DNA of 23,749 nucleotides, from IMG/VR virus record IMGVR_UViG_3300008117_000991, positions 1 through 23,749 of that record. One strand, written 5' to 3'. Positions 1-23,749 of the stretch are shown in pieces. The notes under the pieces were generated by a model that searched no databases, had not been told where the DNA came from, and was given only the letters and a program-made list of their open reading frames with translations. Source of the stretch: a virus. Both the position numbers and the translations under genes were made by a program. How positions within the stretch are numbered: the first letter of the stretch is position 1; every line of letters begins with the position of its first letter.

Positions 1-389
1 ACTTTGACTGTATTTTTCAATGGCAAGTCCTCTTCTAATATCAAAATAGTAAAGTCATCAATACGGGTCAGATCCTTGCCAATCCTTGGTCGGTATGTAG
101 GTGCAACAAGAACTTTCTTAACTTTGTATTTCTTCTTTCCAATAGTTGAATTAATTCCAGGCTCATAAACAAACCCATCTTTTTCCCATTGTTCAACACT
201 TTTCATAGAGTCAAGAAAGTGAGCAACGGTAAATACAATTCTTTCAGAATATAGAAAACCAGAAGTTACGCCTTGTACTTTGACAGCATTTGGATCACCA
301 GTTGCATCTTGACCAAATTCAACGGCATTGGAAAAGGGTATAGATAAAATTAAAAATAAAGATAAAAATACTGATAAAAGTTTTTTCAT
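1..389 (-). CDS. Secreted trypsin-like serine protease, C-terminus beyond the window
   Basis: 129 residues are visible, running off the left edge. A lipophilic signal peptide (residues 1-21, ending PFSNA) is followed by a mature start resembling the trypsin fold entry. The sequence TVAHF puts His57 where TAAHC has the catalytic His, and DDFTIL puts Asp112 where NDIALL has the catalytic Asp. The Ser motif GDSGG would lie outside the window. The Cys that normally follows the His is Phe here, so the usual disulfide is absent. The start ATG at 389 lies exactly 6 nt after a TATAAT box with a TTGACT -35 box at 17 bp, so the mRNA is probably leaderless. Family S1-like fold is likely; substrate unknown. 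It might act on host-surface or competing proteins outside the cell. Confidence 0.72.
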   Translation of the reverse strand, partial: MKKLLSVFLSLFLILSIPFSNAVEFGQDATGDPNAVKVQGVTSGFLYSERIVFTVAHFLDSMKSVEQWEKDGFVYEPGINSTIGKKKYKVKKVLVAPTYRPRIGKDLTRIDDFTILILEEDLPLKNTVK

Positions 390-3947: not shown

Positions 3948-4125
3948 GCTCATACCAAGTAGGGGCTTCGTCTTCTATGGCATCCAATATTTCTTCTGCC
4001 AATTGCTTAGCCAACCTATCCTTGTGTTTTCCTTTAAGTTGATCATAAATAATTTCAACTATAGAATCAATCTTGGACTCACGAGATAACATGGCAAACC
4101 CATTATATAATACCTTTATGTCCAT
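3940..4125 (-). CDS. Hypothetical helical protein, 61 residues
   Basis: Predicted all-helical, with a Lys/Asp/Glu-rich middle and no Cys. First gene of the minus operon; its start lies back to back with the GIY-YIG-like gene on the other strand, overlapping it by 8 nt. Widely spaced hydrophobics suggest a small helical bundle. No family recognised. Confidence 0.7.
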   Translation of the reverse strand: MDIKVLYNGFAMLSRESKIDSIVEIIYDQLKGKHKDRLAKQLAEEILDAIEDEAPTWYEHG

Positions 4126-4432
4126 TCTATATGTGATTTATCATGAAAAATATCATGCCATCAAGGTAGGTGTGGGGGATATCACAGGTAGAAGGTTTCG
4201 CCAACATAGGGCCAAGGGGTGGGAATTAGTGGCATATTGGTATTTTCAAGATCGGCGGGGATGTAGAAGAATAGAATCTACAGTACTACAAATACTAAGG
4301 GATAAATACGGCTATTACCTACATAAGGAAGACATGCCATATGGGGGCTATACGGAGACATTTGATGCCTCAAAAATAACCAAAAGAAAGATAATTGGTT
4401 TGGTCAATAAATCTATAAAGAAATACACTTAG
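4118..4432 (+). CDS. GIY-YIG-like nuclease-domain protein (putative homing-type or T5orf172-like)
   Basis: 104 residues from the ATG at 4118. The N-terminus LYVIY followed by IKVGVGD at residues 15-21 fits the two short strands of a GIY-YIG core, with Arg25/Arg26 and His30 next and Glu53 (RRIES) in the metal-binding Glu position. The length fits a bare catalytic domain. This start is chosen over the in-frame ATG at 4073 because TATAAT (4106-4111) lies exactly 6 nt upstream and no SD exists. It is the only plus-strand gene among minus neighbours and overlaps the end of the sulfotransferase gene by 20 nt, consistent with insertion of a mobile gene. The key Tyr-Tyr spacing is divergent, so activity is uncertain. 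Confidence 0.68.
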   Translation: MSILYVIYHEKYHAIKVGVGDITGRRFRQHRAKGWELVAYWYFQDRRGCRRIESTVLQILRDKYGYYLHKEDMPYGGYTETFDASKITKRKIIGLVNKSIKKYT

Positions 4433-5045
4433 ACTTGATTTTATCGTATGCCTCGTAAAATTTAAACAAATCTACTTGGCCTACAGCCTCTTTGATAACA
4501 TCATAGCCTGAAGCATTTTTACTACTTACCATATAACCATTCTTATAGTCTTTTAGTTTAGTTTTATATTTTTCTGTTATAATTTTAATATTTAATAAAT
4601 TTGCTATATGACAGGTTGTTTCAAATGGATAAGACACTAGTTGATCATAGTCTACTATTATTTTGCTTTGGCTTGATAGTTTTGTATAATGATCACAATA
4701 TTGGTTAGCCCTATCTTGTATATCTTTTATTTGTAATAATGATATGTCTTCAAAGTTTCTATGTTTTTGCTTTATAGCCATAGTAATGTCTGATATAAGT
4801 AAATCTTTTGGATCCCTGGCTATGGTTATCATTTTGAGTTGACCTATTTCCAACCCGCTCCAAAAACGAGCATTGTTATTTAGAAGGCCTCCAATTGCAT
4901 AACCCCAAGTCTGAGGTTTAGGTTCATGATATTTTAGCACTACATGTCCAGTATGTACAAATAGTCTTTCTTGTAGATAATGACTTCCTGTACGAGGAAC
5001 TGTAACTATTGCCCAATCTTTGACAATGTTCAAGGCATCATTCAT
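4413..5045 (-). CDS. PAPS-dependent sulfotransferase (first of two)
   Basis: 210 residues. Residues 14-27 (VTVPRTGSHYL) form the 5'-phosphosulfate-binding loop, equivalent to YPKSGT in cytosolic sulfotransferases. Residues 71-85 (KMITIARDPKDLLIS) form the 3'-phosphate-binding motif with the R-x-P-x-D-x3-S pattern. A VDYDQL segment near residue 135 matches the conserved YEDL region. Such enzymes move a sulfonate group from PAPS to a hydroxyl or amine on sugars, lipids or tyrosine; the acceptor is not predictable. It is shorter than eukaryotic enzymes (about 280-300) but complete for the core. No SD; TATAGT lies 7 nt before the ATG. Last gene of the modification cassette. Confidence 0.82.
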   Translation of the reverse strand: MNDALNIVKDWAIVTVPRTGSHYLQERLFVHTGHVVLKYHEPKPQTWGYAIGGLLNNNARFWSGLEIGQLKMITIARDPKDLLISDITMAIKQKHRNFEDISLLQIKDIQDRANQYCDHYTKLSSQSKIIVDYDQLVSYPFETTCHIANLLNIKIITEKYKTKLKDYKNGYMVSSKNASGYDVIKEAVGQVDLFKFYEAYDKIKSKCISL

Positions 5046-5048
5046 ATT

Positions 5049-5663
5049 TTATACTATATCGTACCACAATGGTACTGTATATCTTGTTCCAGATATTACG
5101 GTTTTGACTTCATGAGCAAAATTATACGTTCCTGGAAAATAAATCAAATCACCTTTTTTAGGTTTTATTAATAAGTCATGATCTAGAAAATATAATTCTC
5201 CGCCCTCATAGTCATCATTTAAATATATAATGCTGGCTAAAGGACTTGCATTTGGATTACCGATGTCATCTACATGAACTCCTAAACTTGTTCCTGCATC
5301 CCATTTCACTACACAAATTGGTTGATTTGGTCTTGGTATTATTTTTACAGAAAAAGAATTTTCTATTAACGCACCAACTTTGTCAAAAAGCCATGCAAAA
5401 CTTTGCATTGGAGGGCTGTTAAATACTTGAAACCAATTACACTCTTGTCCATTTTCATCCCATTGACAAGGTATTTTCTGTCCATTAAACATTTTTGTAT
5501 AATTTATTAATTCATCACAAGTTTGATAATCTAAAAAATTATTGATAACTATGATATTTTCTTTATTATTGCTTACCCTCTCAAAATACTGTTTATAAGC
5601 ATCAGACCTATCAAAAGAGTCTGGATCATGTCCTATGTCTTTTCCATTTATCTTATAACCCAT
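5049..5663 (-). CDS. 2-oxoglutarate/Fe(II) dioxygenase, prolyl-4-hydroxylase type
   Basis: 204 residues from the ATG at 5663. The double-stranded beta-helix core shows GVHVDD (iron ligands His130 and Asp132), then YLNDDYEGGELYF, the GDLIYFPG strand, NFAHEV with the third iron ligand His184, and GTRYTVPLW with Arg194 placed to bind the 2-oxoglutarate carboxylate. All cofactor ligands are present, so it should be active. It hydroxylates an unknown substrate. The ATG at 5663 is preferred over the upstream GTG because TATAAT lies 6 nt before it and neither has an SD. Flanked on both sides by sulfotransferases. Confidence 0.88.
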   Translation of the reverse strand: MGYKINGKDIGHDPDSFDRSDAYKQYFERVSNNKENIIVINNFLDYQTCDELINYTKMFNGQKIPCQWDENGQECNWFQVFNSPPMQSFAWLFDKVGALIENSFSVKIIPRPNQPICVVKWDAGTSLGVHVDDIGNPNASPLASIIYLNDDYEGGELYFLDHDLLIKPKKGDLIYFPGTYNFAHEVKTVISGTRYTVPLWYDIV

Positions 5664-5683
5664 TTTTATATTATACACTTCAT

Positions 5684-6211
5684 TTAAGGTTTTAATGCTT
5701 TATTTTTTACTTGTTCATATAATTTATTTAATTCTTTTAAATCATATTCTTTGACCTTTTCTTTAACAAGATCATAGTGTGATGACTTAGTGCTGGTTGT
5801 TATATGTTTTTCACTAATATTATCTTGAACTTCTTCAAATGGGGTTTCATTTATTTCAGTTATATTCAATTCTTTAATTAATGTTTTGATAATGCCATCA
5901 GGATTCTGTAGCAAATCTTCATATTTAAATATTATTGCAGGTCTTTTTAACAACTCTGTATAAAAACCAGAATATTTTTTGATTAAGTCAGAAATCTTAT
6001 AAAATTCATCATAATGAGAAAGTTTTGTTGCTTCAGATGTTATTGAGTCTAAAGGATTTCTGACTACAACTATAATGGTACCTTCTACAAAATAATGATA
6101 TTTAGGAAATTGATATCCAGTTTTGGCTACTATCAAATTAGACAGATAAACGCTACCAGATCTGGGATATGTACATATTGAAACTGATTCTATAGTTCTT
6201 AAATTGCTCAT
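5684..6211 (-). CDS. PAPS-dependent sulfotransferase (second, short form)
   Basis: 175 residues. CTYPRSGSVYL (13-23) is the 5'-phosphosulfate loop. TIIVVVRNPLDSITS (45-59) is the 3'-phosphate motif, with Arg51, Pro53, Asp55 and Ser59. IIFKYEDLLQNP (93-104) is a textbook YEDL motif. The spacing between the first two motifs is unusually short, meaning the helical acceptor-binding insert is reduced. Sequence similarity with the 4413-5045 protein is confined to the motifs and a few C-terminal positions (SSHYDLVKE versus ASGYDVIKE), so they are diverged paralogues. The ATG at 6211 has no SD; TACAAT lies 8 nt upstream. First gene of the cassette. Confidence 0.85.
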   Translation of the reverse strand: MSNLRTIESVSICTYPRSGSVYLSNLIVAKTGYQFPKYHYFVEGTIIVVVRNPLDSITSEATKLSHYDEFYKISDLIKKYSGFYTELLKRPAIIFKYEDLLQNPDGIIKTLIKELNITEINETPFEEVQDNISEKHITTSTKSSHYDLVKEKVKEYDLKELNKLYEQVKNKALKP

Positions 6212-6516
6212 TATTTATGATTGTATCATGAGTTATGCTAAAGTTCGGCGGAAAATAGAAATACAAACCCCCCTATGCTCTAAACGAGCACTATGGGTTA
6301 ATATATCTATATCCCCGATAAAATGGAGGGGATGTAAAGTATCCCCATTATCCCCCATAGTAGAATATATCCCATATGGGACCAAAGGTGGTTTTATGTG
6401 TACCGTCGCTTAAAAGGTTTTATAATAGCCCAATGCATTTACATCAGGTTTATACTAGGATATCTGATACGAAGATAGTTTATTATTGTCAACAGTGTGG
6501 ATGGGAAAAGACAGAG

Positions 6517-10777: not shown

Positions 10778-11797
10778 TTACGCAATCGCTAAAGTATTTT
10801 TTACAATACCAAGCAGACGATTTTTTTCTGCTGTAATCATTGGGTCAAATCCAGAAGCAGCAGCGAGCATTGCCTCAGTATTACCACCACGAGCAGACCT
10901 GTGCCAATCAAGGCGTTCAGTTAGAGCATTGAAAGCACCCCAAGCGGTGTTAGCAATCATTCCATTAAATTGACCTGTATAGATGTCATTGATAACATCA
11001 ACCTTATTGGTCCATTTAGTAAGAGCAACTTTCGCTGCGTCTTTGTCAGGCTTAGGATAAGCAGCAAGAACAATATCATTGAACTGTTGCGCTGTAATTT
11101 CTTTTTCAATCATAGCCTTAGCCATAACATCAAAAGCGTCCATATAAGCATTAGCAAGACCAAGAGCCTCACGAGCAATTTGAACCTTGCCGTTAGCGGT
11201 CTGTGTATGACGAATCTTGAATGATTGCTTGATAGCGTTCTTGCCACGCTTAGAACCAAGAGCAAGATTAAGAGTGTTAGCGCATACAACACGAACGGGT
11301 GTTATTGACGCTTGAATAGCAATAGAGCCATCGTGGCTTGTGTTGATAAGTAAATAAGTTTTTACTTTATCCGCAACACCATTAGGGTCTAATACTGTTT
11401 CACGCTCAAGAGCAAGAGAGCCGAATACTACACGCCCTCCACGAATTGAACCAGCGGTTTCCCAGCGACCTCCGCCGTCTAGGATATTATCACCGAATGA
11501 AAATAAATCTTCATTCTGTAAAACATGATAACGCTCACCGACAACACCGAGAACATCGGTCTGTGTGTTATCCGTAGGGTTAGTGCGAACAACATATTGA
11601 TAAGCCTTATCTGATGTAAGGGTATTTGGAATCTCAACATCAACCAATCTAACATTCCAATTATTTAGATTAGCAGCAGCAAGCATTTCGCTTGTTGTTT
11701 TTTCTTCTGAGAAAACTGTGCCAAGACCATGCCAAGCAGGTTCTCTAAAAGAAGCAAATGAAGCAACGCCATTTTGCGTTTCTAATTCATGAGCCAT
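10778..11797 (-). CDS. DUF932 / TIGR03299 phage-plasmid-like protein
   Basis: 339 residues, the usual length. The N-terminus MAHELETQNGVASFASFREPAWHGLGT is characteristic of TIGR03299, and the DUF932 core follows (VVGERYHVLQNEDLFSF, GGRVVFGSLAL, VCANTLNLAL). It ends with a Trp-rich C-terminal segment (NTAWGAFNALTERLDWHR) typical of the family. Such proteins are abundant on phages and plasmids, soluble, and of unknown molecular function; some are linked to DNA metabolism by context. GGAAAGGA lies before the ATG, with a promoter at 11825-11853. One of the most confident calls in the window. Confidence 0.95.
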   Translation of the reverse strand: MAHELETQNGVASFASFREPAWHGLGTVFSEEKTTSEMLAAANLNNWNVRLVDVEIPNTLTSDKAYQYVVRTNPTDNTQTDVLGVVGERYHVLQNEDLFSFGDNILDGGGRWETAGSIRGGRVVFGSLALERETVLDPNGVADKVKTYLLINTSHDGSIAIQASITPVRVVCANTLNLALGSKRGKNAIKQSFKIRHTQTANGKVQIAREALGLANAYMDAFDVMAKAMIEKEITAQQFNDIVLAAYPKPDKDAAKVALTKWTNKVDVINDIYTGQFNGMIANTAWGAFNALTERLDWHRSARGGNTEAMLAAASGFDPMITAEKNRLLGIVKNTLAIA

Positions 11798-20220: not shown

Positions 20221-20239
20221 TTTTATGGGGGAAACTACA

Positions 20240-21028
20240 ATGACGCCAAAGTCTATATACGACATTGATTTAAATTCTGCAGAAGGAAATTCTGATTTTT
20301 TAAAACAATACAAAGGTAAAGTAACAATGATAGCAAACACAACAGTTGGTTGTGGAAATGCTAATCAACTAGAAGTTCTTCAGTGGCTTCAGGAAAAGTA
20401 CCAAGATCAAGGATTTGAAATCATTGGTGTTCCTACAAATGACTATTGTGGTCCAGGAATTACTAGAGGAAAGTGGGCAGATGGAATTACTTGCGGTCTA
20501 GACTCAAAGGCTTATGGAGAAGATGTTTACGGAACAACATTTAATTACTCTGAAATGGTTTCTTCAAATCCACACGAAAAGTTTTATGAAATATATCCTC
20601 ATGCTAACGATAATCACGAAAGACGTCAACCTCATGAGTTGTATGTAGAAATTTCATCACAGATGAAGGCTTTACGGGATATGAAAGAGCATTTAGAAGA
20701 CTCAAATGTAGAAGGAAAATTCATGCCAACCAGTGGGTTCAACATTGGTTTTTATGATCAAGTTGACATGGGTGGAAACTACGAAAAGTATCTTATTGAT
20801 AAAGATGGATATGTCATGAAACACTTTGCAAACAAATCCTTAAACTACGATGCTGAGAAAACACTCAAAGAGTCATTAATGGCAGAAGGACACTCTGAAC
20901 CTTTTGCACAGCATGGTGGCAGAACAATTGAAACATTTAACGAAGAATACAATTTTGTTTGTTCTGAAATCGAAAAAGCAATTGCAGGAGCAAGATCTGC
21001 ACTTAATCCAAGTTTAGTAAAAATTTAA
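20240..21028 (+). CDS. Glutathione-peroxidase-like thiol peroxidase
   Basis: 262 residues from the ATG at 20240, with GGGGGA 7 nt upstream; 20225 is a weaker start. SIYDIDLN, YKGKVTMIANTTVGCGNANQ (Cys38 at the peroxidatic position), YQDQGFEIIGVPTNDYCG and KYLIDKDGYVMKHF follow the GPX fold. Of the family's catalytic tetrad (C, Q, W, N), Asn180 is kept, but the Trp of WNF is Gly179 and the Gln near NDY is Asp. Extra Cys70 and Cys85 could be resolving Cys. A long insert (about 86-165) and a C-terminal extension are unusual for GPX (about 160). It may relieve oxidative stress in the infected host, or be a non-peroxidase relative. Confidence 0.85.
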   Translation: MTPKSIYDIDLNSAEGNSDFLKQYKGKVTMIANTTVGCGNANQLEVLQWLQEKYQDQGFEIIGVPTNDYCGPGITRGKWADGITCGLDSKAYGEDVYGTTFNYSEMVSSNPHEKFYEIYPHANDNHERRQPHELYVEISSQMKALRDMKEHLEDSNVEGKFMPTSGFNIGFYDQVDMGGNYEKYLIDKDGYVMKHFANKSLNYDAEKTLKESLMAEGHSEPFAQHGGRTIETFNEEYNFVCSEIEKAIAGARSALNPSLVKI

Positions 21029-22835: not shown

Positions 22836-23234
22836 ATGGCAAATCTCTGTGCTCCCGAAATTTTTGGTGCTGATCCAGTAACCATTCAGTGGAGAGCAGT
22901 TCGTGGAGATACAGCAACTTTACGTGTAGAATTTTATGAAGATGATGAAGTAACATATTATGATACAACTGGATGGATATATAGATGCACAGCCTATGAT
23001 CAATCTGGAAATGTATTAGATGCTTTGGATTGCGAACCAGGCGAAGGATTTGTAGATATTACTGCTTATGCTTCAGTTACTAAGAACTGGGGAAGTGGTT
23101 ATAAGGCTACCGTCGCAGAGTTGCCTTTTGATCTTCAGGTAATAATTCCAGAAGAAATAGAAGATATTGTTTGGACACCAGTTGTCGGAACGATTTATGT
23201 TATAGGTGATGTAACACCAGGAGGTACTTTATAA
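22836..23234 (+). CDS. Probable virion protein, 132 residues, beta-rich
   Basis: WRAVRGDTATLRVEFYEDDEV then WIYRCTAYDQSGNVLDAL, strands typical of small Ig-like or adaptor domains found beside phage tail-fibre genes. The C-terminus is DVTPGGTL. The stop overlaps the collagen-like gene by one base (TAATG), which supports a shared role such as baseplate or fibre attachment. No exact family. Confidence 0.75.
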   Translation: MANLCAPEIFGADPVTIQWRAVRGDTATLRVEFYEDDEVTYYDTTGWIYRCTAYDQSGNVLDALDCEPGEGFVDITAYASVTKNWGSGYKATVAELPFDLQVIIPEEIEDIVWTPVVGTIYVIGDVTPGGTL

Positions 23235-23749
23235 TGGCAGTTATTAAAATTGTTCCTATGCCAGGCGCAAAAGGAGATCAGGGAGACGATGGTGCAACAG
23301 GTGCACAAGGATTGCAGGGGCCAATTGGTGAGACAGGTCCAGCAGGTGCTGATGCTTTATGGAACTATAATGGTGAATGGAGTCCAAGCGCTACATATGC
23401 AGAAGGTGACGTAGTTACTTATAATGGACAAACATATTATGCAACTGGAATTACAACTCTTGCAACAACTCCAGACATAGATCTTAATTTTGATTTAATT
23501 GCAGCCAAAGGTGCTGACGGATTAAATGGTGTTGATGGTGCACAAGGAGAGCAAGGCATACAGGGTATTCAAGGTGAGCAAGGAATTCAAGGTATCCAAG
23601 GCATACAAGGAGAAACTGGACCTGCTGGAGCAGATGCTCTTTGGAATTACACTGGAGCATATAGTGGTGGCTCAGCATATGGCGTCGGAGATCTAGCAAC
23701 ATATGACGGACAACTTTGGTATCGCAAACACGCTAATGGCGGTAATGTT
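23234..23749 (+). CDS. Collagen-like tail-fibre protein, runs off the right edge
   Basis: 172 residues visible. The N-terminal MAVIKIVPMPGAKGDQGDDG enters Gly-x-y repeats (residues 11-38), then GADALWNYNGEWSPSATYAEGDVVTYNGQTYYA, which resembles a CBM5/12 chitin-binding-like module. A second Gly-x-y run, rich in GIQGIQ (about 91-125), is followed by a second such module (ALWNYTGAYSGGSAYGVGDL). Trimeric collagen-like shafts with small carbohydrate-binding domains are typical of phage receptor-binding fibres. Pro occurs at x but rarely at y positions. Confidence 0.88.
   Translation, partial: MAVIKIVPMPGAKGDQGDDGATGAQGLQGPIGETGPAGADALWNYNGEWSPSATYAEGDVVTYNGQTYYATGITTLATTPDIDLNFDLIAAKGADGLNGVDGAQGEQGIQGIQGEQGIQGIQGIQGETGPAGADALWNYTGAYSGGSAYGVGDLATYDGQLWYRKHANGGNV

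Follow-up and report, generated by a model that had tools for sequence, protein, structure and literature searches.

Genes of the sulfotransferase–oxygenase–sulfotransferase locus

The window analysed in the present study is a viral fragment of 23,749 bases from IMG/VR (record IMGVR_UViG_3300008117_000991), and it carries on its minus strand a trio of genes, transcribed in the order ST_up, DOX and ST_down, that encode a PAPS (3′-phosphoadenosine 5′-phosphosulfate)-type ST (sulfotransferase), a P4H (prolyl-4-hydroxylase)-like 2OG (2-oxoglutarate)/Fe(II) oxygenase and a second PAPS-type ST. The genes, their motifs, the selection acting on them, their synteny and their promoter boxes are demonstrated below at the level of sequence, and the coordinates are collected in Table 1. 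A first-pass annotation of the window had described two PAPS-motif enzymes flanking an iron/2OG oxygenase with gaps of 3–20 nt, and our profile searches agree with it on coordinates, strand, gaps and enzyme classes, the motifs of all three proteins being intact. The mechanically called ORF (open reading frame) of DOX begins at a GTG at position 5678 (209 aa), which would place the TATAAT box of this gene within its coding sequence; the gaps of 20 and 3 nt hold when DOX starts at the ATG at 5663, a start that fits the locus.

Table 1 Features of the trio and its surroundings in the window
Feature	Position	Strand	Basis or remark
ST_up, PAPS-type ST, 175 aa	5684..6211	-	Pfam Sulfotransfer_1 6e-7; motifs
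DOX, P4H-like 2OG/Fe(II) oxygenase, 204 aa	5049..5663	-	Pfam 2OG-FeII_Oxy_3 2e-12
ST_down, PAPS-type ST, 210 aa	4413..5045	-	Pfam Sulfotransfer_1 1e-7
-10 box TACAAT	6220..6225	-	8 nt upstream of ST_up ATG
-10 box TATAAT	5670..5675	-	6 nt upstream of DOX ATG, leaderless geometry
-10 box TATAGT	5053..5058	-	7 nt upstream of ST_down ATG
Conserved module-head element TTTTCCGCCGAACTTTA	6239..6255	-	recurrence in related loci
T5orf172/GIY-YIG-like nuclease gene	4073..4432	+	phrog_681 endonuclease 7e-10; Pfam T5orf172 just under cut-off
DUF932 gene, marks block adjoining module	10778..11797	-	Pfam 2e-49

ST_up contains the P-loop TYPRSGSVYL, followed by KYH, the 3′-phosphate motif VRNPLDSITS and STKSSHY, and the corresponding series in ST_down is TVPRTGSHYLQE, KYHEP, ARDPKDLLIS and SSKNASGY. 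As the two proteins are only 26% identical, they do not represent a recent duplication. In DOX the iron ligands are H130, D132 and H184, and the 2OG arginine is R194. Assignment of both flanking proteins to the PAPS-dependent ST class, which for ST_up is made from Pfam and motifs, and of DOX to the P4H-like 2OG/Fe(II) oxygenases is well supported. A megablast search of 50,697 cultured-phage records found no DNA match to the window, and the two ST sequences had no tblastn match among the same number of phage records.

Conservation of the trio and of its catalytic residues

The trio is found in a related phage contig (L004) in identical order, with 81–82% identity for ST_up, 88% for DOX and 70% for ST_down. 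Comparison of the window with this contig gave dN/dS ratios of 0.39, 0.18 and 0.21 respectively, at dS values of 0.3–0.9, and therefore all three proteins are under purifying selection. No decay of the PAPS or iron sites was seen in related copies. Seven positions (R18, H40, R77, P79, S85, Y181 and Y200 in alignment A2) are invariant in 71 diverse STs. The P-loop TxPRxG, which binds the 5′-phosphosulfate, has R18 in 71/71, P17 in 70/71 and G20 in 69/71 sequences, the window pair included; the 3′-phosphate-binding motif RxPxxxxxS has R77, P79 and S85 each in 71/71, and H40, the candidate catalytic base, is likewise present in every sequence. Across 51 DOX sequences the HxD...H triad is retained at H130 in 50, at D132 in 51 and at H184 in 50, and the 2OG-binding position is arginine in 44 and lysine in seven. 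All three enzymes are predicted to be catalytically active.

Predicted folds

The AlphaFold model of ST_down has a pLDDT (predicted local distance difference test) score of 88 and, when aligned with the PDB by VIA-align, gave STs as its top rows, with Z scores of approx. 10–11 (maximum 10.8) and an rmsd (root mean square deviation) of approx. 4 over 160–180 residues. Foldseek returned an E value of just ~1e-3 for this model, because the protein is short and diverged. SULT, heparan 3-O-ST and TPST2 all lie within one Z unit of each other against the model, and therefore the fold does not reveal whether the acceptor is a glycan, a protein or a small molecule. The AF2 model of DOX (pLDDT 94) shows the double-stranded β-helix fold of the P4H group; its best PDB match is PBCV-1 vCPH, a viral collagen prolyl hydroxylase (Z 17.7, rmsd 2.7, 160 aligned residues), its profile matches Bacillus anthracis P4H with E 2e-16, and mimivirus L230, LH3 and bacterial P4H are also near. 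The folds of ST_down and DOX are thus supported by the models.

The trio as one arrangement of a wider module

To place the trio among its relatives we collected ST loci by similarity to the module's own STs, and the counts below describe that ST family rather than all phage STs. The module-bearing records are all metagenomic, many of them fragments; some fetched loci share contigs, and non-redundant counts are given where possible. Several of the tests were devised after the data had been seen. A DOX gene lies on the same strand at most 4 kb away in 43 of the 44 non-redundant ST loci, and in 40 of the 44 there is also a fusion gene, encoding an SsuD-like flavin mono-oxygenase domain joined to a 2OG-type domain. 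The linkage of sulfation and hydroxylation genes in the first-pass annotation therefore stands, but the strict contiguous ST–DOX–ST order was found in just two lineages, and we rejected the trio as a fixed unit, since most relatives hold the fusion, an SGNH-like gene and extra STs.

By profile searches, the typical order behind a DUF932 gene is an ST, an antisense GIY-YIG-like gene, DOX, the fusion, one or two further STs and an SGNH-like gene, the last label coming from weak Pfam matches (E 0.01–0.02). In a set of 53 non-redundant fusion loci, all 39 with adequate upstream sequence have DOX ahead of the fusion, and downstream of the fusion an ST is found in 30/37 and an SGNH-like gene in 31/37. 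STs are present in 32 of 38 fusion loci; when only loci flanked on both sides are counted, four of 29 are without a nearby ST. The GIY-YIG-like gene is a regular neighbour, and 29 of 39 loci have a copy within 3.5 kb on the upstream side of the fusion; in the window it is convergent with the trio and overlaps ST_down by 20 nt. The DUF932 protein of the window has 77–85% identity with those of module-bearing relatives. From gene order, the trio is best described as a rearranged form, i.e. one arrangement, of a wider module of freshwater actinophages.

The fusion itself is unusual in its second domain. The HxD motif has given way to PxD, SxD, RxD, AxD or similar in most of the 61 unique copies (L011:8898-10325 with some 60 homologues), only three retain the histidine (as HIND), and this 2OG domain may be non-catalytic. 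The closest solved relatives of the first half are alkanesulfonate mono-oxygenases, by a weak match.

A 24 kb contig (G001) encodes trio proteins identical with those of the window and continues with a trypsin-like protease, SGNH-like proteins, a VirX1-like halogenase and a methyltransferase. On a contig with identical trio proteins, L084:14360-15982 encodes a flavin-dependent halogenase (Pfam E 9e-99) of which the closest solved structure is cyanophage VirX1. Some relatives add a NodU-like carbamoyltransferase, a GlcNAc-type glycosyltransferase and a methyltransferase, enzymes that often act on glycans; one such carbamoyltransferase (L096:2607-4028) lies near several 2OG oxygenases.

The halogenase, carbamoyltransferase, methyltransferase and SsuD-like oxygenase of these relatives would also suit a module that, like a natural-product gene cluster, decorates a small molecule or a metabolite of the host, and among solved structures the ST profile is indeed best matched by the CurM ST of curacin synthesis. 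We consider this reading highly improbable, as no scaffold-making enzyme was seen among the annotated genes and the ST fold scores are equal for small-molecule, glycan and protein STs. DNA was set aside as a target: DOX is not of the TET/JBP type, and we know of no sulfated DNA base.

ST lineages

In a maximum-likelihood tree of 72 STs, those encoded upstream of the fusion are separated from those downstream. The upstream STs form a clade of 23 rows (support 100/98) that includes ST_down of the window, and mapping of gene position on to the tree required three changes for this group compared with 19 in shuffles. ST_up of the window sits on a long branch and its placement is unsure. These mostly position-specific clades suggest that the STs have separate acceptors.

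Promoter boxes and the module-head element

The first-pass annotation had assigned each gene its own TANNNT box 6–8 nt before the ATG, and the three boxes of Table 1 bear this out, exceeding shuffled expectation. In related phages 64% of DOX genes and 42% of ST genes have TANNNT 5–8 nt upstream of the start, compared with approx. 16% of shuffled upstream sequences, and in 68 of 117 DOX genes the distance is exactly 6 nt. In a set of 294 phage genes, TANNNT at exactly 6 nt was found in 45, against approx. ten at every other position. A 6-nt spacer would set the transcription start at the A of the ATG, the geometry of a leaderless mRNA, which is known in actinobacteria. DOX, ST, SGNH and GIY-like genes show the signal strongly, and enrichment is absent for the fusion, halogenase and DUF932 genes of related phages.

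Upstream of ST_up lies an element of approx. 20 bp that was counted in 54 distinct contexts over 3.3 Mb of locus sequence, compared with one in 1.45 Mb of shuffled sequence. It often stands directly ahead of the -10 box of the first module gene, whether DOX or ST, and sometimes occurs as tandem degenerate copies. This head element may be an operator or a cassette boundary.

Such a boundary raises the prospect that independent accessory genes with unrelated substrates have been gathered in a variable locus by a mobile element, either the head element or the GIY-YIG-like gene. The head element precedes differing genes, the GIY-like gene is not fixed in its place with respect to the STs, distant loci have DOX but no ST, and the GC content of the trio region is the lowest of the window (0.31 compared with up to 0.42 elsewhere). 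We regard this explanation as unlikely given that 43/44 STs sit with DOX and that ST lineages hold their position over large divergence, which is more order than a mere insertion site requires.

Likely hosts and the supply of PAPS

WhiB, an actinophage marker, is encoded in 11 of 12 long related records, the DUF932 protein of the window has 50% identity with those of Streptomyces phages (Jay2Jay group), and the protease on the G001 contig is closest to proteins of Candidatus Planktophila and another actinobacterial MAG (metagenome-assembled genome), at 42–45%. The likely hosts, we infer, are acI actinobacteria (Nanopelagicaceae). The order of these likely hosts has cultured members with isolated phages, which have genomes of approx. 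39 kb and were described as a separate family (PMC10202952).

An APS (adenosine 5′-phosphosulfate) kinase above cut-off was found in 42 of 121 sampled Nanopelagicaceae genomes, mostly in a frame of approx. 610–630 aa that fits a CysN–CysC fusion. At the APS-kinase loci examined (L127:7567-11164 and L128-L130) two glycosyltransferase-like genes, an ST, CysD and CysN–CysC lie together, gene names here being taken from reading of the sequences and from family matches, and such loci hint that some members of the acI family have sulfated polymers on their surface. No PAPS_reduct-family (CysD/CysH) gene was present in 14 phage records, and PAPS would thus be derived from the host.

Relatives of the window phage do encode an APS-kinase-like/nucleotidyltransferase protein, which scored 62 bits with Pfam APS_kinase (cut-off 21) and failed NCBIfam apsK with 62.7 (cut-off 138.7). 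In one example (L095:6650-7408) the APS-kinase-like domain is joined to a cytidylyltransferase-like domain, a form common in aquatic phage contigs and often adjoining a halogenase. We did not accept this enzyme as proof of phage-made PAPS, since it falls under the equivalog cut-off and is widespread without STs, which occur in just seven of its 65 loci; the gene is absent from the window. Recent capture of the module from the host, as a host-derived auxiliary gene, was likewise not supported, no close homologue being found in the inferred host family: the phage ST profile matched three of 121 Nanopelagicaceae genomes, with E values of 1e-6 or weaker, and the SsuD-like part matched none of the 121, in a query run without a positive control.

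Proposed function of the cassette

We propose that ST_up and ST_down would be single-domain PAPS-dependent O-sulfotransferases and DOX a hydroxylase of the prolyl-4-hydroxylase type, with the genes transcribed from the head element and from a leaderless promoter each, probably independently of the late tail operon and by the RNA polymerase of the host. With PAPS taken from the host, the enzymes would work in parallel on an exposed polymer, most likely of the host envelope, each ST having its own acceptor, and would alter the surface of the infected cell so as to mask receptors or exclude superinfecting phage. The source of PAPS, the timing, the acceptor and the purpose are all inferred, and we hold parallel tailoring of an envelope polymer as our leading, if tentative, interpretation. 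An envelope polymer is favoured because the cassette adjoins the DUF932 block and has its own promoter boxes, because none of the 53 fusion loci has a collagen-like ORF nearby, and because the ST loci of the inferred hosts adjoin glycosyltransferase-like genes.

Several observations weigh against this proposal. By fold, DOX is nearest to enzymes that hydroxylate peptides, in some cases a collagen-like viral protein, and this points to a protein as acceptor. Halogenase and 2OG genes of other phages are found beside structural genes. Approximately two-thirds of the sampled host-family genomes have no APS kinase above cut-off and may lack PAPS, although the missing match in these incomplete genomes is not proof of absence. 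Moreover, the supposed timing of expression derives from gene position and promoter boxes.

The first of these observations leads to a close rival, namely that the cassette modifies the phage's own virion proteins. Here the substrates of DOX would be prolyl or lysyl residues in collagen-like or adhesin proteins, and the STs would add sulfate to tyrosine or to hydroxylated residues, so as to adjust the stability of fibres or the binding to the host. In addition to the resemblance of DOX to PBCV-1 vCPH, mimivirus L230, LH3 and bacterial P4H, a collagen-like gene was identified by Pfam at the end of the window (23234-23749), relatives hold such genes, and in the cyanophages Sf-CH11 and S-CREM1 and in phage DSL-LC01 structural or collagen-like genes have halogenase or 2OG genes as neighbours. 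However, the collagen-like gene of the window is approx. 17 kb from the trio and on the opposite strand, the module genes have their own promoter boxes, and the count of 0/53 given above applies here also; we rate modification of the virion as possible but doubtful. A dedicated collagen-tailoring system with a local substrate was not supported on the same counts.

The first-pass annotation had envisaged that the hydroxyl made by DOX is then capped by an ST. Such a sequence is possible, but P4H enzymes as a class modify peptide residues, the four of 29 fusion loci described above lack an ST, a further 48 distant DOX loci, with several DOX genes each, contained an ST in none, and the STs fall mostly into different clades by position.

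Comparison with known systems

The phage STs share the P-loop, the RxP...S motif, the conserved histidine and the fold (approx. 160–180 residues) with PAPS STs of the Sulfotransfer_1/3 families, such as SULTs, heparan sulfate 3-O-ST, TPST2, mycobacterial STF9 and the CurM ST. They differ from this superfamily in size (168–222 aa compared with approx. 250–300 aa), in being highly diverged and in being clustered with an oxygenase. DOX likewise has the HxD...H motif and 2OG arginine in common with PBCV-1 vCPH, B. anthracis P4H and PHD2, but is only 20–25% identical with them and occurs together with STs. The CysD–CysNC–ST locus of Nanopelagicaceae places an ST beside PAPS-making genes in the inferred host family, but its STs are approx. 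290–310 aa long and only distantly similar to those of the phages.

Single ST or 2OG-oxygenase genes are known as phage auxiliary genes, for example in OM43 phages, and the role of phage STs has been stated to be unclear (PMC10580990). The enzyme classes are the same there but the genes are separate, whereas here they form a syntenic module with a head element. The clusters of cyanophages Sf-CH11 and S-CREM1 (VirX1 of Syn10) combine arrays of P4H-like oxygenases with a VirX1-like halogenase, both of which also occur in relatives of the window phage. Those clusters adjoin structural genes, with no ST annotated in the stretches viewed, whereas the present module adjoins the DUF932 block and is centred on STs. 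Each enzyme class is therefore known, and in the open-access literature, to which our search was confined to the exclusion of subscription papers, we found no earlier description of the arrangement as a module.

In these actinophages, whose hosts are very abundant in fresh water, the STs lie nearly always beside a P4H-like hydroxylase, are under purifying selection and form position-specific lineages, which makes a system of what were scattered genes and yields a short list of testable acceptors. The host prerequisite, PAPS synthesis, differs from one species to another and might restrict or otherwise influence host range. A more ambitious and rather speculative suggestion, which we would not yet back, is that lineage-specific PAPS STs, a P4H-type hydroxylase and the SsuD-like/degenerate-2OG fusion constitute a dedicated surface-sulfation system under one regulatory element, by which a defined polymer would be sulfated and hydroxylated in the course of infection at the expense of a patchy host PAPS supply.

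Other genes in the window

Four further genes were noted in the window. Its first bases (3-389, minus strand) encode the start of a trypsin-like exported protease, followed by a tRNA-Met gene (470-544, minus) and by a gene (721-2025, minus) for a protein of 434 aa, of unknown family, that seems to carry a signal peptide. Towards the other end, positions 20225-21028 encode a glutathione-peroxidase-like protein, recognized by Pfam, that has a long additional C-terminal part.

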